A stretch of DNA of 23,962 nucleotides, taken from a virus. This document shows, piece by piece, positions 2,794 to 18,628 of the stretch; the first letter of the stretch is position 1, and every line of letters begins with the position of its first letter. The translations under genes and the position numbers were made by a program. The stretch covers positions 1-23,962 of the IMG/VR virus record IMGVR_UViG_3300028025_000227; one strand, given 5' to 3'. Under the pieces are notes generated by a model, which had not been told where the DNA came from, did no database searches, and was given only the letters and a program-made list of their open reading frames with translations.

Positions 2794-3333
2794 TTACACG
2801 TTCCGTTCAAAGTGCGGGCAGTCTACCAAGCTCTTGAAGAAATATTTCACTGACCCGTACTCAACATTTAGCGCCCGTGCTATTGCCGACACTGACACGC
2901 CAATTGCTTGCATCTTGATGGCTAATTCTTTTTTGTCTTGCGTCATTTTGTGCCTATCTGCATTCCGAACATTTTTTGCAAAGCTAACATAGCGCAAATT
3001 TTCAATTTTGTTGTTGGTGTTGTCCCTGTCAATGTGGTCAACAACCAAGTCGGCTGGGCGCTCTCCCAAAAATGTTTCTGTCATAAGCCGATGGACAAGA
3101 ATGGTTTTATGCTTACCTTCAATCACAGAATTGAACCGCAAATATCCGTCTTTGTCTGTACGCAGTTTTAGCTCTCTTCCAGCAACTTGGCATGAATATG
3201 GAGAACGCCCCCTAGAAAAACTGTGCTTTACACGGTCTTTTGTGAATACCCGTCCACAACGGGTAACCAGTAAGTGGCTGTACACTGTTTGCACTTTTTC
3301 AATCAGTGACTCGTCTGAATTCTGGTTTCCCAT
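2794..3333 (-). CDS. HNH homing endonuclease (HNH_3-like) with C-terminal helix-turn-helix
   Basis: A free-standing homing endonuclease. The core HRLMTETFLG...DHIDRDNTNNKIENLRYVS...NVRN has the layout of the HNH_3 family, with His/Asp metal ligands and the N-N-L-R-Y-V strand. A C-terminal segment (IKMQAIGVSVSAIARALNVEYGSVKYFF) reads as a helix-turn-helix that would contact DNA. I place the start at the ATG at 3333 because AGAGG lies about 5 bases before it; an upstream ATG at 3360 has GGAG too far away. The start lies inside the endolysin gene (35-base overlap). Such genes cut phage genomes that lack them and spread by repair; they are not part of the virion. Confidence 0.87.
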   Translation of the reverse strand: MGNQNSDESLIEKVQTVYSHLLVTRCGRVFTKDRVKHSFSRGRSPYSCQVAGRELKLRTDKDGYLRFNSVIEGKHKTILVHRLMTETFLGERPADLVVDHIDRDNTNNKIENLRYVSFAKNVRNADRHKMTQDKKELAIKMQAIGVSVSAIARALNVEYGSVKYFFKSLVDCPHFERNV

Positions 3334-3670
3334 CTGGGCCTCTGGAGAAGTGTGGTGCATCCACCAATTTTACTCCATTGCCACCCCATGAGTTAGCTTT
3401 GTTTAAGCTCTCCCAGTACGCGCCAAGCGGAGCAATGGTGGCCTTGTCCCAGATGATTTTGCCATCACGGAAGAAGTTCAAGTCCATTGCGCACCGCTTG
3501 AGGTGAATGGAGTTCATGGTCTTGGAGCGCCCTGTCTTGAAGTAAATGGCCTGCTGCTCGGGTGTGCGGGCAAGCTCCCCGCCTGTGACCATCCAGCCCT
3601 TGTCTGTGGCGTGTTGAACCAGCTTGCATATATCCAGCAGGAACGCTGCTTGTTCGGTACTAAGACTCAT
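3299..3670 (-). CDS. Endolysin, M15-type (L-alanyl-D-glutamate or D-Ala-D-Ala) peptidase
   Basis: A 123-residue peptidoglycan peptidase. The zinc site is visible: SIHLKRCAMD gives His56 and Asp63 (the H-x6-D signature of peptidase M15), and DAPHF gives Asp104 and His107. Length fits single-domain phage M15 endolysins; there is no signal peptide and no cell-wall-binding domain. It would cut peptide stems of peptidoglycan once the holin opens the membrane. It follows the 3TM holin with an ATGA overlap and a strong GAGGAG ribosome binding site. The usual Gly after H-x-x is replaced here (Arg59), as I recall from some other phage members. The exact bond cleaved cannot be read from sequence alone. 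Confidence 0.87.
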   Translation of the reverse strand: MSLSTEQAAFLLDICKLVQHATDKGWMVTGGELARTPEQQAIYFKTGRSKTMNSIHLKRCAMDLNFFRDGKIIWDKATIAPLGAYWESLNKANSWGGNGVKLVDAPHFSRGPDGKPEFRRVTD

Positions 3671-7392: not shown

Positions 7393-7869
7393 TTAGGTTG
7401 TCGCCAACCGCAGCAAAGCAGTAGTCGTGGTGTTAGACGGCATAGTCAACGTGAACGTACCCGCAGTAACGGTCTGACTACCAAACGTGTAAACAGCCAC
7501 AGCCTTATCGCTTTGCGTCGAGTTGTACATCAGCACCGTATCAAACGCTGTAGACAAGGTGACCGATGTGTACGTGATGGATGCTGAAGGTGTGAAAAAC
7601 GCTACGCCCGCAGTTGCTGAACTATTGGTTGCCGTAGGAGGTGTGGCGTTAGTTACTGCAACCCCACCCGCTGAATAGCCAGTACCAGAAACTTCTCCGG
7701 TAACTGTGTATGCCGTGGTAGCCGCATTGATGGTCGCGCTTGTCAGGTACAAAGCTGCTTTGAACGTGTCGGCAGTGGTGACTGCGCGGATAGGGGCCGT
7801 GCCAAAGTTGTGCGTAGCGGTCAGGAGTTCCCCCATGAAGGAGGTACACATTGAAGCGGTGTTTGCCAT
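7393..7869 (-). CDS. Virion structural protein, paralogue of the 138-aa gene (158 aa)
   Basis: A 158-residue beta protein with the layout FKAALYLTSATINAATTAYT, EVSGTGYSAGGVAVT, VLMYNSTQSDKAVAVYTFG and a closing TMPSNTTTTALLRL. The gene at 8064-8480 has the same blocks in the same order (LKIALYTGDASLNEDTTAYT, EVVASGYTAGG, ALIYNVTQGNKSIAVIDFG, AMPANTSTTALIR), so the two arose by duplication. An AAGGA ribosome binding site lies 6 bases before the ATG. The family is widespread next to phage tail and connector genes, and I know of no assigned function. It is likely a virion surface or tail component. Confidence 0.78.
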   Translation of the reverse strand: MANTASMCTSFMGELLTATHNFGTAPIRAVTTADTFKAALYLTSATINAATTAYTVTGEVSGTGYSAGGVAVTNATPPTATNSSATAGVAFFTPSASITYTSVTLSTAFDTVLMYNSTQSDKAVAVYTFGSQTVTAGTFTLTMPSNTTTTALLRLATT

Positions 7870-7878
7870 GATGAATCC

Positions 7879-8067
7879 TTAAAAAGTACCGGTTTCGCCG
7901 CCCATAGGAGGCATCTTTTTCAACGTAACATGCACTGACCGATGAACCATTTCACCGTCCAGCCAATACTCAGTCCACGCAGTCAACTCGTTCGCATTGT
8001 TCACTTCACCAGAACGATGCTCTAGCAAGGAATCATCCATCTCGCCTTTGGTCGTGGTGACAATCAA
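7879..8067 (-). CDS. Small hypothetical phage protein, TTG start (62 aa)
   Basis: A 62-residue protein: a polar, acidic first half (TTKGEMDDSLLEHRSGEVNN), a beta strand pair around TEYWLDGEMVHRSVHVTLKK, and a short PPMGGETGTF tail. The start is TTG at 8067, overlapping the previous TGA as TTGA, with a perfect AGGAG 6 bases upstream; an internal ATG (codon 10) has no such site. It lies between two paralogous structural genes. I do not recognise a function. It may be a small virion or assembly factor. Confidence 0.7.
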   Translation of the reverse strand: MIVTTTKGEMDDSLLEHRSGEVNNANELTAWTEYWLDGEMVHRSVHVTLKKMPPMGGETGTF

Positions 8068-8480
8068 TTTGAACTCCTGATGAGTGCAGTGGTGGAGGTG
8101 TTAGCGGGCATAGCGATTGTAAAGGTCGTGGTTGAGGTTTTGTCTGCCCCGAAGTCAATCACTGCAATGGACTTGTTGCCTTGGGTCACGTTGTAAATCA
8201 AAGCGCACCGGGCGGTGATTGCCGCCGTCCAAGACGTATTTGCGAAATTCACATAGGCTGTGTAGTCAGCAGAACTAATAGTCACCCCAGTCAGCGTATT
8301 GCCACCGGCTGTATAGCCTGACGCTACAACCTCGTTGGACGTTGTATAGGCCGTGGTGTCCTCGTTCAAGCTGGCATCGCCGGTATACAAGGCAATCTTG
8401 AGGGTGTCCGTGGACAGGTTGTGGACGGCCTCGTACAACTCCTTCTTGAAGCTGGTGGTCTGCGTTTGGACGATGCTCAT
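8064..8480 (-). CDS. Virion structural protein, paralogue of the 158-aa gene (138 aa)
   Basis: A 138-residue beta protein of the same family as the product of 7393-7869. Shared blocks are LKIALYTGDASLNEDTTAYT, the GYTAGG turn, IYNVTQGNKSIAVIDFG and AMPANTSTTALIR. The N-terminus (FKKELYEAVHNLSTDTLKIA) matches the paralogue's start but lacks a short insertion found there. GAGG lies 7 bases before the ATG, inside the end of the HNH gene, and the start overlaps the HNH stop as ATGA. It is likely a virion component near the tail; the exact position in the particle is unknown. Confidence 0.8.
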   Translation of the reverse strand: MSIVQTQTTSFKKELYEAVHNLSTDTLKIALYTGDASLNEDTTAYTTSNEVVASGYTAGGNTLTGVTISSADYTAYVNFANTSWTAAITARCALIYNVTQGNKSIAVIDFGADKTSTTTFTIAMPANTSTTALIRSSN

Positions 8481-8986
8481 GCCGCTACCTCAAAGCTGTT
8501 GGACTTGCGGCGGTTTTCAGCCTGAGTAACAACCTGTAGATTCCAAGGAGTGTGTAGCCCCGAAACGGTCTTACCACGTAATGGAACAATGTGGTCTACC
8601 TCCCAAGGAGTCCCAAACATTTTTGTCCGCAAAGCTGCAAGCTCATATGCCTGCTCAATCACCCAGTAGTCGTCAGGGGACATCCATTTGGGCGTAGCCT
8701 GCGTCTTGGAAGCGTACCTACGCGCTGTTCTTGCATTCACTTTGGCTGCGTTTTGTTTAGCCCATTGATTGCATTTAGCGTTGTGTTTTGCGCGGTTTTC
8801 TGCAACCCATTGGATGGCCTTTGCCACAATGTGCGCTTGATTTTTAACATGATGCACTTGCATGTAGGCCGCTACACACGCTTTACAGATATTGCGATAG
8901 CCATCCTTGCGCGTTGCATCCTTATGGAACAATCCATAATCTTTGCTTGTTGCGCACTTGGTGCAAGTTTTCACTATGGTGCTCAT
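8477..8986 (-). CDS. HNH endonuclease with N-terminal zinc finger (169 aa)
   Basis: A free-standing HNH endonuclease. The N-terminus has a four-Cys zinc knuckle (Cys8, Cys11, Cys34, Cys37). The C-terminal nuclease reads PWEVDHIVPLRGKTVSGLHT, NLQVVTQAENRRKSN, giving Asp131-His132, His145, Asn149 and Asn158. It is homologous to the HNH gene at 18110-18628 (shared ELAxLR, VDHxxP, LHT/CTHxxNLQVV, NRxKSN). It starts in an ATGA overlap with the adaptor gene and ends in an ATGA overlap with the next gene, without a clear ribosome binding site of its own, so it probably depends on coupled translation. Role: a DNA-cutting mobile gene rather than a virion part. Confidence 0.9.
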   Translation of the reverse strand: MSTIVKTCTKCATSKDYGLFHKDATRKDGYRNICKACVAAYMQVHHVKNQAHIVAKAIQWVAENRAKHNAKCNQWAKQNAAKVNARTARRYASKTQATPKWMSPDDYWVIEQAYELAALRTKMFGTPWEVDHIVPLRGKTVSGLHTPWNLQVVTQAENRRKSNSFEVAA

Positions 8987-9678
8987 GTTACGGCTTGGCG
9001 GTATTGCCCGCTACGGTATGCGTCTTGTCTTTCAAGCCCGTCACCTAAACGCTTGGCAAGCGCCAACGCCTCTTTGTACTTACCGTCGTATAGGGCGAGT
9101 AAATCTGCCTCACCTTTTTGAAACGTGTAGGCTTCAACCAGACTCCCATAAAGCAAGACCGTATCAAAATTATCCCCTAGCCATGTTGTGCCAGCAGTAG
9201 TAATGGACTCAGGAAAATAGTAGTAGTGCAGTTCTGCTGAGTAGGTTGCGTCGGGTGTCGGGCCAAGAAGGAATGTCAGTTCTGTAGTAATCACAGAGTT
9301 TGCAACGGTCGGGCCAAACAGCGCGTAGTACTTGGGAGTGCCAGTATCTGTCGGTGTTGGATAGGCTTCACGGATAAAGTTTACATCCTTGTTCAACAGG
9401 TACGTGTACGGGCCCGAACCTGAGTAGATAGCCAAGGAGTACGAAGACAGAAAGTCATCGGGGCAGGATAGGTACTTGTTGCTGACTGCAACAGTCCCCG
9501 TCACGTTCTTGCGCAGAAAGGGAAATTGCACCGAGTTGTAGATGCGCTGCTCTGCCTGCTGGATGAAGCGGTTAATCTGAGCCGTAGACGAGACTGTAGA
9601 CCCGTCCGCGAGTGTAATCGCCGGAAAGTTGTTTTCCGTGTAGGTCTGTATCGCCGCCGAAAGCTCAGAGTAGTTCAT
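8983..9678 (-). CDS. Head-tail adaptor-like protein (231 aa)
   Basis: A 231-residue protein. The N-terminus MNYSELSAAIQTYTENNFPA is helical, then INRFIQQAEQRIYNSVQFPF leads into a beta part (VAVSNKYLSCPDDFLSSYSL) and a closing helical bundle (TVLLYGSLVEAYTFQKGEADLLALYDGKYKEALA). This helix-beta-helix order, including the AExRIY and C-P-D-D-F-L blocks, is typical of adaptor proteins that dock on the portal in short-tailed phages. GAGG lies about 9 bases before the ATG, which overlaps the preceding stop as ATGA. The C-terminus ends in an ATGA overlap with an HNH gene, which probably invaded here. Adaptor is a confident type; the exact family was not searched. Confidence 0.8.
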   Translation of the reverse strand: MNYSELSAAIQTYTENNFPAITLADGSTVSSTAQINRFIQQAEQRIYNSVQFPFLRKNVTGTVAVSNKYLSCPDDFLSSYSLAIYSGSGPYTYLLNKDVNFIREAYPTPTDTGTPKYYALFGPTVANSVITTELTFLLGPTPDATYSAELHYYYFPESITTAGTTWLGDNFDTVLLYGSLVEAYTFQKGEADLLALYDGKYKEALALAKRLGDGLERQDAYRSGQYRQAVT

Positions 9679-9938
9679 GCCATCGGGCCTCGGGCGTACA
9701 AACCCTTAGTAGCACAACCAGTTCCCCGTACCTTGATTCCACTTGTCTTAGCGGGCTCATTACCAGCAGACTTGCTGATGCCCCCAACGCTGATGTCTAG
9801 CGTGTCCATCTTGCTGCGGTTAGGTTCTTTGCCGGGGACTGCCGGGATTTTCATCCGCTTCCCGTCCATCGTGTGTGGCTCCGCGTAGACGCTGGCTTGG
9901 CCAACTTCCTTGCCGCCTTTTTTCATACTGTATGCCAT
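9675..9938 (-). CDS. Small Lys/Gly-rich conserved phage protein (87 aa)
   Basis: An 87-residue basic protein beginning MAYSMKKGGKEVGQASVYAE and ending TSGIKVRGTGCATKGLYARG-PMA. The GCATKGxxARGPMA ending is one I recognise from small genes of other environmental phages. It has no membrane segment or catalytic motif and looks mostly disordered. It lies 3 bases after the 59-residue gene and overlaps the adaptor gene as ATGA. A GGGGT stretch a few bases before the ATG may serve as the ribosome binding site. A DNA-binding, connector or internal virion role is possible from charge and position; none is established. Confidence 0.76.
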   Translation of the reverse strand: MAYSMKKGGKEVGQASVYAEPHTMDGKRMKIPAVPGKEPNRSKMDTLDISVGGISKSAGNEPAKTSGIKVRGTGCATKGLYARGPMA

Positions 9939-9941
9939 GAT

Positions 9942-10121
9942 TTACCCCGTTTTCTGGTTGGCTGCACGAGACAGGTTGCGACCAACGCGCATCCGGTCTT
10001 CAGAGGTGGGCCCACCTTTGGCTAATTTAGTCATAGGCTTTCCGGGATGTAGCTTTTTCTCGTGCTTATGCACAGCCTTAGCCATCATCTTTTTGTCCTG
10101 TTTCAAATCTGCTTTGTCCAT
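9942..10121 (-). CDS. Very small Lys-rich conserved phage protein (59 aa)
   Basis: A 59-codon gene. The product starts MDKADLKQDKKMMAKAVHKH, continues EKKLHPGKPMTKLAKGGPTS and ends in a helical basic tail (EDRMRVGRNLSRAANQKTG). An AGGAG site lies 6 bases before the ATG at 10121, and the TAA is 3 bases before the next start, so it fits the operon. I recall short phage proteins with the same KQDKKMM...HKHEK...HPGKPMTKLAKGGPTS layout. About a quarter of residues are Lys, Arg or His. The function is unknown; it is one of a cluster of tiny basic proteins in this stretch. Confidence 0.72.
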   Translation of the reverse strand: MDKADLKQDKKMMAKAVHKHEKKLHPGKPMTKLAKGGPTSEDRMRVGRNLSRAANQKTG

Positions 10122-10130
10122 TTCAAGCTC

Positions 10131-10520
10131 CTAAGTTACGCTCACTGTGACTGTGCCAACACTTGTGGTTCCGACCAAGTAGTTGGGTGTTAAACCTACA
10201 TCAGAACTACCAACCCCACCAATGGGATTCCAGCCCCACTGGATGTCTCTACTACCCCCACCGGGGTATCCCAACGTATCCAAACCAGAAGTCACATAAC
10301 TACGGTCAGGGCGCGGGTTACGCAAAGCCTGTGGGTCATCTACAGGAAACATACCTAGCTGTAGCTGCGGTTGGTCAGGGTCCCAACATGCTGGGCATAC
10401 TAGCAGATTGTAGTTCTTCGTCTTGATGATTTCTGTGCGTAGAACCTTCAACTTAAACCGCTGACCGCAGCGGTCACATTCGGAGATTGCATTCTTGCCA
10501 GAAGCGAATCTATTGCCCAT
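10131..10520 (-). CDS. Zinc-ribbon phage protein (129 aa)
   Basis: A 129-residue protein. The N-terminal third is a zinc ribbon with CDRC (Cys15, Cys18) and CPAC (Cys42, Cys45) knuckles separated by a beta strand (RFKLKVLRTEIIKTKNYNLL). The rest is Gly/Pro/Thr-rich with low complexity (LGYPGGGSRDIQWGWNPIGG, VGTTSVGTVTVSVT), ending as a beta strand. The ribosome binding site is poor (GGCGG), suggesting coupling to the connector gene two bases upstream. A structural zinc-stabilised connector component is plausible because it lies between connector and adaptor genes; a nucleic-acid-binding role cannot be excluded. Confidence 0.77.
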   Translation of the reverse strand: MGNRFASGKNAISECDRCGQRFKLKVLRTEIIKTKNYNLLVCPACWDPDQPQLQLGMFPVDDPQALRNPRPDRSYVTSGLDTLGYPGGGSRDIQWGWNPIGGVGSSDVGLTPNYLVGTTSVGTVTVSVT

Positions 10521-10522
10521 GA

Positions 10523-11449
10523 CTACCGCCCAATATAGGTCTGTCGCGGCACTAACCGGATGGCCGCTTTCTCACGGTCTTCGTACGCCGCAAGTTCCCA
10601 AGTCTCATCGTATTGCTGCTTGAGCATAGGCAGTCGCTCCATGCCAGTAGGAATCTTGCCTGCGATATAGAACGCCAACCCCGCTGCCATGCAGGGGATA
10701 AACCGGAACGGCACGTCCATGATGTTCACACCCCCGCCAGCATCTTGAGTGCGGCGCAGTCGCCAGTAGGCGAACGTGTAGGTCTGTGCATTGTCGGGTG
10801 TAGGCCAGACGGTGATGGCGGGAAGCTGCTGCCAGTAGACAGTAGCCCCGGCAGTATGTGCCGCAGCGGTGGTGTTGTTCTGCCCACGGAAACAGCTATA
10901 GAGGGTGTTCCCCTCTATGTAGACGTAGTTGATGGTCTCTGAGTCGATCTTGATGAACCCCGAAGCGGGCAGGCCCACTGTGGAACTCAAAGTGATTTCG
11001 GTGCTGGTGCTTGTGATTGTGGTAGCTAGGGTTAACCCTACCACCGAAGTCTGCCCGTTGTATCGCTGAATCCAAAGCTGGATAGGTCGCGCTTGGGTCA
11101 GCTTATTAGGGATAGTGGCGTAGGTAGAAACACTGATGCGGGTGATGGTCAGGTCAGACTGGTTGGAAGTGCTGTTGGCATCCGTGCGGATGACGTGCTC
11201 CAGCAAGTCAATCGTGTCGTCTGGCAGGGCATAGGTGTTCTGCCCCTGCACCATAGTGATAGTGCCCGGCTCAATCGTCCACAGGTTGATGCCCCGGTTG
11301 GCCCAGTCGGCGAACATGATGTTGAGGCTGCGCCGCGCTGTGCGCATGTCATAGCCCGTACGCAACTCACTTCCGGCCCGCTCAAAAGCCTCCTCGACCA
11401 ACTCGGTGAGGTCAAGGTTGAAAGCTGTGGAGCCGGAGGTATTGGCCAT
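10523..11449 (-). CDS. Tail tubular/connector protein with inserted beta module (308 aa)
   Basis: A 308-residue protein. The N-terminal helical part (LDLTELVEEAFERAGSEL, YDMRTARRSLNIMFADWANR, GINLWTIEPGTITMVQGQNTY) and C-terminal part (FIPCMAAGLAFYIAGKIP, LKQQYDETWELAAYEDREKA) are typical of the portal-proximal tail-connector or tubular proteins of short-tailed phages (T7 gp11-like or P22 gp4-like). Residues about 137-206 are an inserted beta module with GLPASGFIKIDSETINYVYI and CFRGQNNTTAAAHTAGATV, a common mobile module in phage structural proteins. The ATG shares its A with the previous TAA. Connector role is by pattern and context. Confidence 0.82.
   Translation of the reverse strand: MANTSGSTAFNLDLTELVEEAFERAGSELRTGYDMRTARRSLNIMFADWANRGINLWTIEPGTITMVQGQNTYALPDDTIDLLEHVIRTDANSTSNQSDLTITRISVSTYATIPNKLTQARPIQLWIQRYNGQTSVVGLTLATTITSTSTEITLSSTVGLPASGFIKIDSETINYVYIEGNTLYSCFRGQNNTTAAAHTAGATVYWQQLPAITVWPTPDNAQTYTFAYWRLRRTQDAGGGVNIMDVPFRFIPCMAAGLAFYIAGKIPTGMERLPMLKQQYDETWELAAYEDREKAAIRLVPRQTYIGR
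10832..11041 (-). other. Inserted phage beta module in the connector protein
   Basis: Residues about 137-206 of the 308-residue protein follow the pattern ITLSSTVGLPASGFIKIDSE, INYVYIEGNTL, CFRGQNNTTAAAHTAGATV. The same pattern (a GFP-x-SG-x-I strand followed by RG-x-x-x-TTAAAH-x-x-G) occurs in many unrelated phage structural proteins, so it is read as a transferable module that interrupts the helical core. The identification is from memory of the pattern. Confidence 0.55.
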
Positions 11450-11682
11450 TATCTAAAACCTGCTGTTTTCTTTGCAATGCTCTTGGGCTGAGCTACAAAC
11501 TGTTTACCTGCCGCTTTGCCCGCTCGTTTGGCTTTGGTGGTCGCAGCGTACTCGGATGGGGACAAGGACTTGATAGCAGCTTCAGGGAGGTATCGCTCAC
11601 CTGTTTTTGACGACGGCTTTCCCGACTTGGTGCGCCACTTCTGGTCACCCCAAGCTTTCAGGGATTGCTGTGGCGCTTTCAA
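11449..11682 (-). CDS. Small basic conserved phage protein, TTG start (77 aa)
   Basis: A 77-residue Lys-rich protein with SLKAWGDQKWRTKSGKPSSK, GERYLPEAAIKSLSPSEYAA and KAAGKQFVAQPKSIAKKTAG. This KxW-TKSGKPS...GERYLP layout is one I recognise from small phage genes of unknown function. The start is TTG at 11682: GGAGG lies 9 bases upstream and the codon overlaps the previous TGA as TTGA. A longer ATG-started frame to 11748 would run 70 bases into the upstream gene and has no support. A role in binding DNA or in head-tail assembly is possible; nothing proves it. Confidence 0.76.
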   Translation of the reverse strand: MKAPQQSLKAWGDQKWRTKSGKPSSKTGERYLPEAAIKSLSPSEYAATTKAKRAGKAAGKQFVAQPKSIAKKTAGFR

Positions 11683-11954
11683 TCCGTATACCCTCCGCCA
11701 GCAGCCTTGTACTTCTTGGCTACAAGCTGCGCTTTTCTCGCGCTCCATTGCCCTGCACCTGTGCCCTGTGTGGCCGCAGCCTTCACCTGAGACACGATAC
11801 GTTTGCGCAAGCTAGGCTTGGTGTAGTTCCCCGCAGCATTGACCTTACCGCCTTCAGCGTACTGCGTGAAGTCGGTGTTATCCCGACGCGCTTTCTTCTT
11901 AGCGCCGGGCATCTTGGACGGGTTGATGTCACCCATGCCGCGAGAGGCTATCAC
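11679..11954 (-). CDS. Small basic conserved phage protein, GTG start (91 aa)
   Basis: A 91-residue protein with a MGDINPSKMPGAKKKARRDN block near the start, then YAEGGKVNAAGNYTKPSLRK and the end GQWSARKAQLVAKKYKAAGG-GYTD. The order MGDINPSKMP...YAEGGKVN-AAGNYTKP...WSARKAQ is conserved in small phage genes as I recall. GTG at 11954 is the chosen start because AAAGGA lies 7 bases upstream and the codon overlaps the previous TGA as GTGA; the internal ATG at 11936 has no ribosome binding site. High Lys/Arg content and lack of a membrane segment suggest a nucleic-acid or virion contact. Function unknown. Confidence 0.77.
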   Translation of the reverse strand: MIASRGMGDINPSKMPGAKKKARRDNTDFTQYAEGGKVNAAGNYTKPSLRKRIVSQVKAAATQGTGAGQWSARKAQLVAKKYKAAGGGYTD

Positions 11955-12175
11955 CGCATCATTCCTTTGGTTTTGCCCCGTTGAGCACAGCCATCTGCAC
12001 GGCTGGATGCGGAACCACCAGAAGCCATTTTCTTGCCCCCGCGCATGCCTTGGCCAGCACCAGCAGACTTCGGGTTTGCCGGAGTACTGTCGGCAGCGTC
12101 ATATGCAGCGTCTTTCTTTGCCTGCATCTTGGCATCCACTACTTCATCGTAGTTAGAAGGTTTTTTGTCAGCCAT
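11951..12175 (-). CDS. Small Lys/Gly-rich protein with MASGG tail motif (74 aa)
   Basis: A 74-residue protein. The N-terminal half is helical and charged (SNYDEVVDAKMQAKKDAAYD), the C-terminal half is Gly/Ala/Lys-rich and ends GKKMASGGSASSRADGCAQR-GKTKGMMR. The tail matches the tail of the next upstream gene (KKMASGGLAAGHKSADG...KGKTK). A perfect AAGGAG lies 6 bases before the ATG. No catalytic or membrane feature is visible. I recall tails of this MASGG...RADG...GKT type in small phage proteins near connector genes. Role unknown; an internal head or DNA-binding role is a guess from charge. Confidence 0.76.
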   Translation of the reverse strand: MADKKPSNYDEVVDAKMQAKKDAAYDAADSTPANPKSAGAGQGMRGGKKMASGGSASSRADGCAQRGKTKGMMR

Positions 12176-12185
12176 GGTTAGCTCC

Positions 12186-12650
12186 TTAGCAGGTTTTGCC
12201 GCCCTTGTTCATCTTCACTTGAGTGGCCTTGGTCTTGCCCTTGGAGGCAACACCGTCGGCGCTCTTGTGGCCAGCAGCCAGACCGCCCGACGCCATCTTC
12301 TTCATGCCGTCTTTAGCCATGTCCATGCCTTTTTTCATGGTCGGCTTGCCCATTGCGGAAGGAGCAGCGCCCTTCTTCTTAGCCATCATTGCCATAAAAC
12401 CGGGGTTCATCTTAGTAGCCATAGTGTCACCACCTTTCTTAAATAGTTCCATTTTGCCTTGTCGAGTGTCAGGCTTGTTGATGCGTTGCAAATCGGCCCG
12501 TGATTTAGGCCCCTTACCAAACTTCATTCCTTTGCTAGCCCCGCTAAATTCTTTGGCAACGGACTGAGGTACCCCGGCCTGCTGGGCGAACGCTTTGTTG
12601 TGCGCCGCAGCATCCATGAATTTTTTCTGCTTAAGGCTTGTCGCTGGCAT
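12186..12650 (-). CDS. Basic small-protein fusion with internal start (154 aa)
   Basis: A 154-residue protein with two parts. Residues 1-75 begin MPATSLKQKKFMDAAAHNKA, then FAQQAGVPQSVAKEFSGASKG; I recognise this as a stand-alone small phage protein elsewhere. Residues 77-154 (MATKMNPGFMAMMAKKKGAA, then a Lys/Met/Gly-rich stretch and KKMASGGLAAGHKSADG) resemble a second small gene. The internal ATG at 12422 has AAAGGTGG about 7 bases upstream, so a 78-residue product could also be made. The main ATG at 12650 has GGGG upstream and overlaps the previous stop. About a quarter of residues are Lys. Function unknown; probably a virion or assembly factor. Confidence 0.76.
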   Translation of the reverse strand: MPATSLKQKKFMDAAAHNKAFAQQAGVPQSVAKEFSGASKGMKFGKGPKSRADLQRINKPDTRQGKMELFKKGGDTMATKMNPGFMAMMAKKKGAAPSAMGKPTMKKGMDMAKDGMKKMASGGLAAGHKSADGVASKGKTKATQVKMNKGGKTC

Positions 12651-12892
12651 TATTTCCCCGCCCGAAGAAGCTGGTCAATTTTTGCTTCGAGCTTGTTAAA
12701 GCGCTGGTCAATGTGGTCAGTAATGCGCTGAACTTCTGATTGAGTAACGTAATCACGGGCAATCTCCTCGCGGGTTTTGTTGAGCAGCAAGTTAAGCCGA
12801 GTCAGCTCAGAGAACTTCTCTTTGAGCAAGAAACCAATGACCGCCAAAGCCATTGTTAGACCTGAAGACCAAATTGTGTTGAGGGATTCCAT
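12650..12892 (-). CDS. Small membrane-anchored coiled-coil protein (80 aa)
   Basis: An 80-residue protein. Residues about 9-24 (SGLTMALAVIGFLLKEK) form one N-terminal transmembrane helix; the rest is a charged coiled coil (LTRLNLLLNKTREEIARDYV, then VQRITDHIDQRFNKLEAKID). The layout would suit a small holin-like, antiholin-like or membrane-docking protein. The start ATG lies just before the preceding TAA with a modest GGAA site upstream. It is separated from the main lysis cassette (3.3-4.8 kb) by about 8 kb, so a lysis role is uncertain. Confidence 0.74.
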   Translation of the reverse strand: MESLNTIWSSGLTMALAVIGFLLKEKFSELTRLNLLLNKTREEIARDYVTQSEVQRITDHIDQRFNKLEAKIDQLLRAGK

Positions 12893-13138
12893 TTAGCAGT
12901 TCCACGCTTTAAGGGATTTATTGATACGCGAGTTCGGGTCTTTTGCGGTTTTCTCGCTGGTGAGCTTCTTTTTCATTCCACTCATCCTTGCGCAAAAAGA
13001 GTCGCGCCTGCTGCCGCCTTCCGGCTGGGGAGGTTTCAAATTCATCCCTTGCTTTTTGGCCGAAGCGCGTCCCTTGGCGTTGAGGCCACCATTGGGATTC
13101 TTGCCTTCTTTGCGAGTCCATGCTGCTGACTTAGCCAT
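12893..13138 (-). CDS. Small basic conserved phage protein (DUF6321-like, 81 aa)
   Basis: An 81-residue protein starting MAKSAAWTRKEGKNPNGGLN, followed by AKGRASAKKQGMNLKPPQPE, SRRDSFCARMSGMKKKL and RINKSLKAWNC. The block AWTRKEGKNPNGGLNAKGRAS and the later RRxSFxARM...SLKAW order match a domain of unknown function I recall as DUF6321, found in small phage proteins. The ATG at 13138 is chosen over an upstream ATG at 13207 because the conserved block starts there; it overlaps the previous stop by 8 bases and GGTG lies upstream. Strongly basic; the role in the particle is not known. Confidence 0.8.
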   Translation of the reverse strand: MAKSAAWTRKEGKNPNGGLNAKGRASAKKQGMNLKPPQPEGGSRRDSFCARMSGMKKKLTSEKTAKDPNSRINKSLKAWNC

Positions 13139-14065: not shown

Positions 14066-14079
14066 TCAGGGGGGTGCAA
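14051..14079 (-). promoter_or_regulatory. Sigma70-like promoter of the connector operon
   Basis: On the minus strand, TTGCAC (14074-14079) and TATATT (14051-14056) are separated by exactly 17 bases. The -10 box matches five of six consensus bases, the -35 box three of six. It starts inside the end of the GIY-YIG gene, upstream of the 167-residue gene. It is the second such promoter after the capsid terminator. Prediction only. Confidence 0.55.
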
Positions 14080-14782
14080 CATATTTGAAAGCCCACCCAG
14101 CATACGGCCCGCGTGTCAATGCTTTGCCGGACTTGAGTGCCCGGTTGGCTGTGGGCGGCTTCAACCCTAACGCGGTAAGCAGTGCTGCGACACTTACGTA
14201 CCCTGTGATGCCCCCCGCCGGGTCAATAGCGACTACGGCCTTGCTAACTTTTGCGCCATGGTCTGGGCGCTCTTTGCCGTACCAGAAGTTGCCCTCCCCC
14301 ATTAGGGTGGCACTGATTTTGGCACGCACCGTTGCAGACTTGGGCTTGCCTACGAGGTGTTCCGTTTTTCTGCGTATGGTGTCTCTGTCTTGTACCCGCC
14401 CGGTGGACGCGGCAGCAATGGCCGCTATATTCTCTACCGAATGCTTGTACCCCCACGTAGGGCTCAACTCCCCCGCCATCCCTTGCATAGGGGCTGTGGC
14501 GTCTACACCGATGTTATAGCAGTGCTCCTGCCCTACGTGCGCGTGCAACCATACGTTTTCTGCGGTCAGCAAGTCTGCATCCGCAGCAATCTCCTCAAGG
14601 GTAACAAACACAAACGCTTGCTCCCCGTACTTATTCCATGCCGCTTGTAGGTGTCGGTTGTTGTGTTTGTTACCGCGCAGTTCTGAAAAGTGCCGGGTTT
14701 TACGTCGTTTCAGATCGACCGCGCTACCCACATAAAACTTGTTGTTGACGATGTTGATGATTTTGTAGATGCCGCGTGCCAT
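14066..14782 (-). CDS. GIY-YIG homing endonuclease with NUMOD repeats (238 aa)
   Basis: A free-standing GIY-YIG endonuclease. The catalytic module is at the N-terminus: GIYKII (4-9), FYVGSAVDLKRR (16-27, with the catalytic Arg), and Glu75 in LLTAENVWL. The C-terminus has DNA-binding NUMOD-type motifs: SVENIAAIAAASTGR and VRAKISATLMGEGNFWYG (NUMOD3-like), then VAIDPAGGITGYVSVAALLT and ALKSGKAL...GWAFKY (NUMOD1-like). It sits just behind the capsid terminator with its own promoter and a weak ribosome binding site, a typical setting for a mobile intron-less endonuclease. It would cut phage relatives lacking it at a nearby site and copy itself by repair. Confidence 0.92.
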   Translation of the reverse strand: MARGIYKIINIVNNKFYVGSAVDLKRRKTRHFSELRGNKHNNRHLQAAWNKYGEQAFVFVTLEEIAADADLLTAENVWLHAHVGQEHCYNIGVDATAPMQGMAGELSPTWGYKHSVENIAAIAAASTGRVQDRDTIRRKTEHLVGKPKSATVRAKISATLMGEGNFWYGKERPDHGAKVSKAVVAIDPAGGITGYVSVAALLTALGLKPPTANRALKSGKALTRGPYAGWAFKYVAPP

Positions 14783-14916: not shown

Positions 14917-15828
14917 TTAGGACGACCCAGGCGAACCGAACATTCCGAGCGGATCGCTCCATCCAAAGCTGTAACGCTCGCGGGCCTTGTAACGTACGTT
15001 CCCCGTATCGAAATCACCGTCCATTGAGTTAGCCAGAGGCGAACGCACGAAATGCTTCAGACCGTTAGGAACGTCAGTGGTCAAATACCAACCGTTAGAG
15101 TCGGTCAAGAAGTTGTTGATTGTGTACCCTTCAGGAATCGAACCGTTGTTCTTCAACGCGTTGATGTCGTTGTCGGTAGTGCCAACACGGAGGCTGGTTT
15201 CCAACAGACGAGTAGCAACGAATTGCAGAGCAGGAGGAACGATCAGCTTACGGGGCTTAGCTGCAATCAGCAAACCGCGCTCGTCAGTCCAAGCAGCGAT
15301 CTGGATAACGGCGGCTTCCAAAGAAGTCTCGTTCAAGTCGGCAGCGGTAGAAGGACGATTGCTGTTGGTGCCACCACTGACCAGCGGGTGAGCAGTGCTG
15401 AACAGAGCAACGCCATCACCGCCAGCGTACTGGGCGGAGAAACCGTTGTTGATAACAGCCGCAGCTTTAACCTGCTTGGTGTACGCCATAGCACGAGCCA
15501 GAGCCTTGGTGTAGCGGGCAGACAGACTGTCGTACAGATTGTCTTCCACTGCTTCTTCAGTGATGGAGAAGCCCAAAGCGATGGTTTCGTGGTTGTAGCG
15601 AGTGGTCCAAGCTTCCTGCGCATTGTCATAAGCAATGGCAGAGCCCTCGTTCTTCACCGGAGCGGCGGAGAAGCCAGACAGCTTGGTTTCCTCTTCAAAG
15701 CTACGCTCCGAAGTTTCGGTTTCATAAAGCTCTTTATGCTGTTCGCCGTAGCGGGCATATTCCAGACCAAACAAAGCGTTCAGTCCGGGGAGCAACTCTT
15801 TAAGTAACTGTGCGCGTGAAATAGCCAT
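14917..15828 (-). CDS. Major capsid protein (Mu gpT-like, HK97 fold expected)
   Basis: A 303-residue protein, the shell subunit. Blocks typical of the Mu gpT-like capsid family are visible: AIAYDNAQEAWTTRYNHETIA, GFSITEEAVEDNLYDSLSAR, AVINNGFSAQYAGGDGVALF, STAHPLVSGGTNSNRPSTAA, LIVPPALQFVATRLLETSLR, and the ending RYKARERYSFGWSDPLGMFG. Size fits an HK97-fold capsid without a large delta domain in front; the scaffold gene upstream would supply that function. AAGGAG lies 7 bases before the ATG. A strong terminator follows its stop, consistent with high expression. No insertion or frameshift is seen. Confidence 0.92.
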   Translation of the reverse strand: MAISRAQLLKELLPGLNALFGLEYARYGEQHKELYETETSERSFEEETKLSGFSAAPVKNEGSAIAYDNAQEAWTTRYNHETIALGFSITEEAVEDNLYDSLSARYTKALARAMAYTKQVKAAAVINNGFSAQYAGGDGVALFSTAHPLVSGGTNSNRPSTAADLNETSLEAAVIQIAAWTDERGLLIAAKPRKLIVPPALQFVATRLLETSLRVGTTDNDINALKNNGSIPEGYTINNFLTDSNGWYLTTDVPNGLKHFVRSPLANSMDGDFDTGNVRYKARERYSFGWSDPLGMFGSPGSS

Positions 15829-18109: not shown

Positions 18110-18628
18110 TTATGCACGGGCAAAAAATCGCCCGGTGTGTTTGTTGGATTTTGACCGGTTCCAATAGGCCGGGACAACTTGTAAGTTGTTGTGTGTGCAT
18201 AACCCACCTTTGCTGACCGGGATAACGTGGTCCACATGCCATTCCCCACCACATACTTGCTTACGCAACCGGGCAAGTTCGACAGCTTCTTTCAATACCC
18301 AAGCATCAAACGGGTTAAGTGCTTTTTCACCAGACCGGCGCATCAGTTGATACCGAAGTCTGGCTTGTTTTCTGGCTTCAGATACAGGTTGCCCCGCACG
18401 TTTACGTTCAGAAAGGGCTTTACCCCCGGACACTGCGTATGCGGCGTCTTCTTTACGTTTCTGCGTTTTACCTTTATCCGAAGCGTAGTACTTTTGCTTT
18501 GCAGCCCTACATCTGTCCGGGTTTGCTTTGCGCCACGCCATAATTTTTTGGTTACGGCAAGGCTTACATTGCGCCCTTACAAATTGGTCTACGGGTTTTT
18601 CTACCCCACATGAAGAACATGTTTTCAT
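18110..18628 (-). CDS. HNH endonuclease with N-terminal zinc finger (172 aa)
   Basis: A free-standing HNH endonuclease, a paralogue of the one at 8477-8986. A zinc knuckle with Cys4, Cys7, Cys21 and Cys24 opens the protein; the central helical part is basic; the nuclease is GGEWHVDHVIPVSKGGLCTH-NNLQVVPAYWNRSKSNK (Asp133-His134, Asn148, Asn157). It starts in an ATGA overlap with the GroES-like gene and ends 10 bases before the scaffold start; the scaffold's AAGGAG lies across its 3' end. Its own GAG site is weak. It is a mobile DNA-cutting gene placed inside the head operon. Confidence 0.9.
   Translation of the reverse strand: MKTCSSCGVEKPVDQFVRAQCKPCRNQKIMAWRKANPDRCRAAKQKYYASDKGKTQKRKEDAAYAVSGGKALSERKRAGQPVSEARKQARLRYQLMRRSGEKALNPFDAWVLKEAVELARLRKQVCGGEWHVDHVIPVSKGGLCTHNNLQVVPAYWNRSKSNKHTGRFFARA

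Follow-up and report, generated by a model that had tools for sequence, protein, structure and literature searches.

In this work we analysed a 23,962-base virus record of an uncultured phage (IMGVR_UViG_3300028025_000227, hereafter the window), whose genes are read on the minus strand, and focused on seven genes for small basic proteins located around its capsid and connector genes. These genes were named K7 (12893-13138), K6 (12186-12650), K5 (11951-12175), K4 (11679-11954), K3 (11449-11682), K2 (9942-10121), and K1 (9675-9938). Judging from sequence comparisons, there is about an even chance that K1 to K7 are small basic cargo proteins that are sorted into the phage head and work like the internal proteins of phage T4, a reading that is proposed because DUF6321 relatives of K7 have been detected in purified virus particles. 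The modularity of the set, with tags on unrelated bodies and exchangeable payloads, was an unexpected result; this modularity and the pairing of K3 with one of the payloads (payload A) are strongly indicated by the sequences.

K7 relatives and the conservation of the gene cluster

The 81-aa product of K7 belongs to the DUF6321 family (PF19846). Its residues 12-79 (domain at 12902..13105, minus strand) matched the Pfam profile with an E value of 3.9e-19, and the score of 69.5 bits over all 72 positions lies above the gathering cut-off of 28.5. K7 also matched eight PHROGs, with DUF6321 being C-terminal in seven of these profiles and ending 20 positions short of the C-end in the other one. The domain is found as a C-terminal domain on varied bodies, in proteins of 81 to 936 aa. 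Elsewhere it is usually the C-terminal domain of longer proteins of T4-like cyanophages, encoded between terS and terL, whereas in the window it constitutes a stand-alone gene, to which a further tag (T1, see below) is added in some relatives. Two proteins with DUF6321 at the C-end have been found in virus particles: SSCSM1_29 of cyanophage S-SCSM1, detected by mass spectrometry in purified virions and listed as a virion protein (PMC9602691), and gp137 of cyanophage S-CREM2, for which four unique peptides were obtained from purified virions (PMC10665884, Table 3). No paper mentioning "DUF6321" was found in the literature. The proposal of the initial annotation that the seven products are internal head or ejected proteins is thus backed by virion detection for one family of the seven, in other phages; for the other six families the evidence consists of location, charge, conservation, and common tags.

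The seven predicted frames were all present on the minus strand, with products of 87, 59, 77, 91, 74, 154, and 81 aa for K1 to K7, respectively. Their description as strongly basic proteins was borne out by isoelectric points (pI) of 9.7-10.7 and net charges of +6 to +24, to be compared with pI values of 4.7-6 for the nearby capsid, portal, terminase, adaptor, and tail proteins. Richness in glycine applied to part of the set and failed for K2 and K3 (8% Gly each). Similarly, the predicted disorder was found in the first half of K4 and did not extend to K3, which is predicted to fold, or to the C-terminal half of K4, modelled as two helices. The genes are chained by overlaps and short gaps, as had been described: four-nucleotide stop/start overlaps occur at 11951-11954 (GTGA) and 11679-11682 (TTGA), and gaps of 10 and 3 nt lie between 12186 and 12175 and between 9942 and 9938, respectively. 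K3 starts with TTG and K4 with GTG, and the K4/K3 overlap was found again in 151 of 204 relatives. From these conserved overlaps, translational coupling of synthesis is plausible.

Conservation was evaluated in about 200 related IMG/VR contigs, the tag survey covering 241 loci plus 80 capsid-picked loci; a capsid-selected sample (n = 34) comprised loci retrieved with no query other than the capsid protein and having 4.5 kb or more of downstream sequence. Purifying selection was observed in all seven families. The median ratios of non-synonymous to synonymous substitution (dN/dS), calculated by the Nei-Gojobori method from non-independent pairs and thus serving as a guide only, were 0.07 (K3), 0.075 (K7), 0.12 (K4), 0.24 (K1), 0.26 (K2), 0.37 (K6), and 0.40 (K5), as compared with 0.10 for the capsid protein. 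Gene order was identical in about 200 loci (capsid, K7, K6/K5, K4, K3, adaptor, zinc protein, K2, K1, second adaptor), and the capsid-selected loci carried K7 in 34 of 34 cases, K6 and K4 in 31 each, K5 in 26, K2 in 25, K1 in 24, and K3 in 18. It is near certain that K1 to K7 are real genes, since low dN/dS, the same order in about 200 loci, and their presence in capsid-selected loci argue against chance frames. The frames are short and of low complexity, and two of them have a TTG or GTG start, features that would fit chance or non-coding frames; such an origin retains next to no probability given dN/dS values far under 1 in each family and strong family matches.

The seven products have no assigned function, as initially noted. 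NCBIfam gave nothing useful for K1 to K7, the PDB gave no match when searched by sequence and by fold, and the window had no nucleotide-level relatives among sequenced phages. The view that the system had not been described requires qualification: DUF6321, DUF5872, and several PHROGs cover parts of it, and no description of a tagged, modular set was found.

Terminal tags and exchangeable payloads

In the window, K5 and K6 are closed by the same tag, T1, which reads SRADGCAQRGKTKGMMR at the C-terminal end of K5 (11954..12004, minus strand) and KSADGVASKGKTK in K6 (12228..12266, minus strand). Its consensus is SRADGIAxRGKTKG, and the pattern S-[SK]-R-A-D-G-[IVC]-A-x-[KR]-G-K-T-[KR]-G produced 587 matches in 41,198 open frames and 0 in shuffled frames, 579 of the matches lying at most 30 residues from the C-end. 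T1 was carried by K5, K6, and some K7 as well as by low-complexity proteins that are unrelated and reach 588 aa, with two or more tagged proteins in 156 of 192 complete loci. Agreement among the T1 tags reached 69% (13 positions) versus a median of 6% of 3-mers common to the bodies. In contigs of 61-67 kb the tag was confined to a single region no longer than about 5 kb, and in three contigs of 65-67 kb that were read whole it occurred nowhere outside the cluster. A tblastn search with T1 against phages gave no match although phage MinM2 has the tag; MinM2 being tagged, query length or filters explain this result, and for that reason it was not used. T1 contains the G-x4-GK[ST] signature, and a reading as a P-loop nucleoside triphosphatase was rejected on the basis of its C-terminal position (579 of 587) and the lack of Pfam matches in K5 and K6. 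As a separate observation, 37 of 139 long tagged proteins start with an Ala/Leu/Gly-rich stretch, such as LAALAALGAMGYM (examples are L109:1089-2852, L204:2182-3339, and L114:2780-3925); these starts are possibly membrane-active.

The K5 protein consists of a variable body plus the tag, it is present in zero to three copies per genome, and many of its relatives match residues 48-73 only. K6 combines an N-terminal module (MPATSxKQKKFMxAAAHN..FAxxxGVPxSVxKxF), a Lys/Met/Gly-rich middle, and the C-terminal tag. Its N-terminus matched phrog_16759 (5.9e-14) and the N-termini of the virion-structural phrog_22033 and phrog_25121, and the module occurs as a separate small protein in jumbo phages, including phiKZ 165.1. 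Whole K6 had no match in phages by tblastn, where just the first 43 residues aligned, to jumbo phages. Between the N-termini of K6 and S-SZBM1_194, the alignment covered only 11 residues. PHIKZ165.1 lies about 4 kb from the phiKZ internal-head genes 162/163, which was not used as evidence, and no text on PHIKZ165.1 was found in the phiKZ virion-proteome paper. K1 has a C-terminal tail, RGTGCATKGLYARGPMA (9678..9728, minus strand), that was judged by eye to be similar to the T1 core RADGxAxRG. K2 presents the C-terminal motif GRNxxRAANQ, and K2-like segments are contained in long K6 proteins.

K4 is built the other way around, with a constant N-terminal tag (11907..11954, minus strand; consensus MxSRGMGxIxPSKMP, predicted to be disordered) and an exchangeable C-terminal payload. 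In relatives, the constant N-terminus MxSRGMGxIxPSKMP...RRDDTDFTQYAEGG precedes payload A (GQWSARKAQ), payload B (GRPYPNLIDN), payload C (GLYANIHAK), or another payload. The window carries payload A (11682..11843, minus strand; ..NYTKPxLRKR..GQWSARKAQ..KYKAAGGGY), and residues 36-89 of K4 matched phrog_17747 with an E value of 1.4e-22. The AlphaFold2 model of K4 showed a disordered N-terminal half followed by two helices in payload A, with a predicted local distance difference test score (pLDDT) of about 80. In some K4 relatives (L227:7721-8536, L228:4323-5153, and L238:4902-5834), payload A is separated from the constant N-terminus by an insert of about 180 aa, and some inserts show apparent alternating beta-strand segments ("GGRAGFSRSVGKDADISAYIEGG") and a KQAATAIAMKxAGKKPKKM motif. 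In isolated phages the payloads are each encoded on their own, HTVC033P having small genes for A, C, K3, and K7 and MinM2 having small genes for B and K7; payload A of HTVC033P is a stand-alone 59-aa gene. Comparable small-gene clusters of HMO-2011-type phages, pelagiphages, and roseophages (HMO-2011, HTVC033P, CRP phages) encode K3, payload A, payload C, and DUF6321 individually in small genes; there the modules are free-standing rather than placed behind the K4 N-terminus, and T1 has no match in HMO-2011 or HTVC033P. In HMO-2011, the payload-A and K3 genes are separated by a methanesulfonate monooxygenase gene (L003:6844-7926).

K3 matched phrog_14910 (E value 3e-36), and its AlphaFold2 model had a mean pLDDT of 84 and a predicted template modelling score of 0.65. 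In capsid-picked loci, identity to the window was 85% for K3 and 89% for the capsid protein; the two are about equally conserved, and K3 is not called the more conserved one because the wider identity comparison included K3-picked loci. The presence of K3 was tied to that of payload A: both were found in 163 loci, neither in 27, K3 without payload A in 5, and payload A without K3 in none. In the capsid-selected loci the corresponding counts were 18, 12, 0, and 0, with an exact probability of 1/C(30,12) = 1.2e-8. In addition, payload A and K3 are fused in the phage-like locus L339 and in many of the loci L347-L380, among them L364 and L369. Residues 4-99 of the L339 fusion matched DUF5872 (PF19197) with an E value of 1.1e-5 and 26.4 bits, below the gathering cut-off of 27.5. 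In DUF5872 both halves would be expected in a single polypeptide, whereas the window has two genes with a four-nucleotide overlap, and K4, K3, and the K4+K3 concatenation gave no DUF5872 match. The family also occurs in algal giant viruses, CpV-BQ1 being an example, in a paper that lists it by name only (PMC12085832). Fusions in both orders, K3-A with 138 aa and A-K3 with 131 aa, were observed in SAR11 genomes, on contigs as long as 384 kb. The K3-A gene (L363:7986-8402; also L352, L350, and L370) is located between genes for a short-chain dehydrogenase and TspO, in a neighbourhood that also includes genes for cyclopropane synthase, DUF3833, and an FAD oxidoreductase, and the A-K3 version comes after another conserved gene in L364, L369, and L366. 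By these sequence relationships, payload A and K3 each make up half of one DUF5872-like protein, and the fusion in both orders indicates that they would be direct partners.

Proposed sorting into the head and alternative explanations

The T4 proteins IPI, IPII, and IPIII are packed into the head by a capsid-targeting sequence and later ejected (PMC9026906). The K set shares with them the presence of several small basic proteins with divergent bodies and a common short terminal sequence, variable between relatives, and it is likewise encoded with head genes, its products of 59-154 aa lying between the capsid and adaptor genes. In T4 the targeting end has ten residues, whereas the ends of the K proteins exceed this length, are found mainly at the C-terminus, and comprise several kinds, with exchangeable payloads. 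The N-terminal pattern MKxFxxFxxE, seen in T4 ipII and ipIII as well as in S-SZBM1_192, was found neither in the K proteins of the window nor in about 318 related loci. No gp21-type cleavage site (L/I-x-E) follows a propeptide, the sole L-x-E of the seven proteins being in the middle of K3, and no prohead protease was seen in the window. In the absence of an N-terminal targeting sequence and a cleavage site, the K set would work like the T4 internal proteins and is not counted as a member of that group. Encapsulins provide another comparison, as short C-terminal cargo-loading peptides bring varied cargo into their HK97-fold shell. Their tags differ from T1 in sequence and in shell, so that this likeness is an analogy only.

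According to the head-cargo proposal, the K proteins would be made together with the capsid and connector, with overlapping starts coupling the synthesis of K5, K4, and K3 during late expression, and would then be sorted into the head. Each of them would consist of a payload and a sorting end, the latter being T1 in K5 and K6, the RGTGxATKGxxxRGPMA tail in K1, DUF6321 in K7, and the SRGMGxIxPSKMP segment in K4. These ends may bind a single component of the prohead, be it the scaffold, the portal, or the capsid interior, by which many different payloads would be enclosed. The enclosed payloads would neutralise packaged DNA and probably exit with the DNA at infection, and payload A and K3 would act as one two-part functional unit related to the SAR11 chromosomal protein. 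What is inferred here is that the K proteins are packaged in this phage, that a prohead receptor exists, and that the proteins neutralise DNA, are ejected, and have any action in the host. A broader and tentative proposal, somewhat unlikely in our estimation, is that the short C-terminal peptide SRADGIAxRGKTKG is a general head-loading signal in a large group of freshwater phages, delivering with the genome a changing set of basic proteins and the two halves of a SAR11-encoded protein.

Several observations weigh against the sorting of the K proteins into the head. The DUF6321 protein S-SZBM1_192 was missing from 30 detected virion proteins, among which were its neighbours S-SZBM1_190 and S-SZBM1_195 (PMC9146016, Table 1). 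The S-CREM2 and S-SCSM1 proteins detected in virions are of large size, and their structural part may therefore lie in the body and not in DUF6321. As K3 and payload A are chromosomal in SAR11, the pair need not be a virion component. Furthermore, the T4-type targeting N-terminus is present in none of the seven proteins, no proteome was found for this phage group, and no solved structure resembling K3 was found, viral relatives of K3 being known.

In the main rival explanation, the K proteins would be made late and, without entering the virion, act in the infected cell by nucleic-acid binding, host takeover, or shielding of replicated DNA, the common tag binding a cytoplasmic host or phage partner and the gene position serving late expression only. 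We regard this as unlikely while granting it an appreciable probability. It would fit the existence of K3 plus payload A as a normal cellular protein in SAR11, the failure to detect the S-SZBM1 DUF6321 protein, and the arrangement in HTVC033P, where the homologous small genes have an amidase gene and the replication module as neighbours and are not placed between capsid and connector. On the other hand, the position between the capsid and connector genes is constant in the group of the window, two DUF6321 proteins were detected in virions, and a third, S-SZBM1_192, starts with MKTFKQYITEA, which matches the capsid-targeting start of T4 internal proteins (MKTYQEFIAEA in ipII and ipIII and MKTFKEFTST in ipI, as read from the T4 genome).

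The flanking of two SU10-type adaptor genes by K3, K4, K2, and K1, together with a K3 conservation about equal to that of the capsid protein, would also agree with assembly factors that chaperone or fill the neck (adaptor, portal) while the head is being completed and are absent or minor in the finished particle. That some of the K proteins have this role is improbable, as 12 of the 30 capsid-selected loci that have this same adaptor lack K3 and payload A, and payload and copy number vary, unlike those of a fixed structural part. It is more improbable still that the genes are accessory cargo or morons with no common role, gathered in an insertion hot-spot and bearing tags that serve as recombination homology for module swapping. 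The free shuffling of modules, and the known gathering of small genes at hot-spots such as the cyanophage gp16-gp17 region (PMC3037559), speak for such an origin; nevertheless, the tag is kept in-frame as protein at the C-end (579 of 587) on nearly all members, the genes are under purifying selection, and no tag has spread to other genome regions.

If the head-cargo proposal is true, the sequence by itself would reveal a sorting code for internal head proteins, virion cargo could be predicted by the tags among the unknown proteins of hundreds of uncultured genomes, and a loading tag testable in the laboratory would be available. Three widespread "unknown" families (DUF6321, the DUF5872-like proteins, and the K6 N-terminal module) would then be placed in one functional setting, and the DUF5872-like pair connects phages, algal viruses, and SAR11 chromosomes.

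Neighbouring genes and related phages

Along the minus strand, the cluster is preceded by genes for terminase, portal, a scaffold-like protein, the major capsid protein, and two small proteins, and is followed by the first adaptor. The major capsid protein (14917..15828, minus strand) is Mu gpT-like (PF25209, E value 1.1e-15; PF10124, E value 2e-9; phrog_371). The SU10 adaptor family PF24175 was matched by two separate proteins, encoded at 10523..11449 (minus strand; E value 2.4e-7), between K3 and K2/K1, and 3′ of it at 8983-9678 (E value 1.2e-22); the genes for a zinc-ribbon-like protein, K2, and K1 separate the two. An optional small protein outside the basic set (12650..12892, minus strand; pI 8.1) is encoded between K7 and K6; it has a hydrophobic N-terminus and a coiled-coil-like C-terminus and was present in 85 loci. 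Several homing-type endonucleases occur within the 24 kb: a GIY-YIG/NUMOD3 endonuclease gene (14066-14782, minus strand) adjoins the capsid gene, an HNH-like endonuclease gene lies at 18110-18628 (minus strand), and HNH-like frames at 8477-8986 and 2794-3360 (minus strand) were both judged by eye only. Two phrog_644 paralogues are located side by side at 7393-7869 and 8064-8480.

The DUF6321 protein of MinM2 (L002:9188-9433, WEV89206.1) is annotated as a "RecA-like recombination protein", an apparent misannotation. The records of MinM2 (OQ594354.1), Pag-Yong1 (OL906435.1), and Pra-JY27 (PP438419.1) all measure 65,014 bp and show equal DUF6321 identity to the window, and they are credited to three different cyanobacterial hosts. 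They are possibly one phage, perhaps of a companion bacterium.

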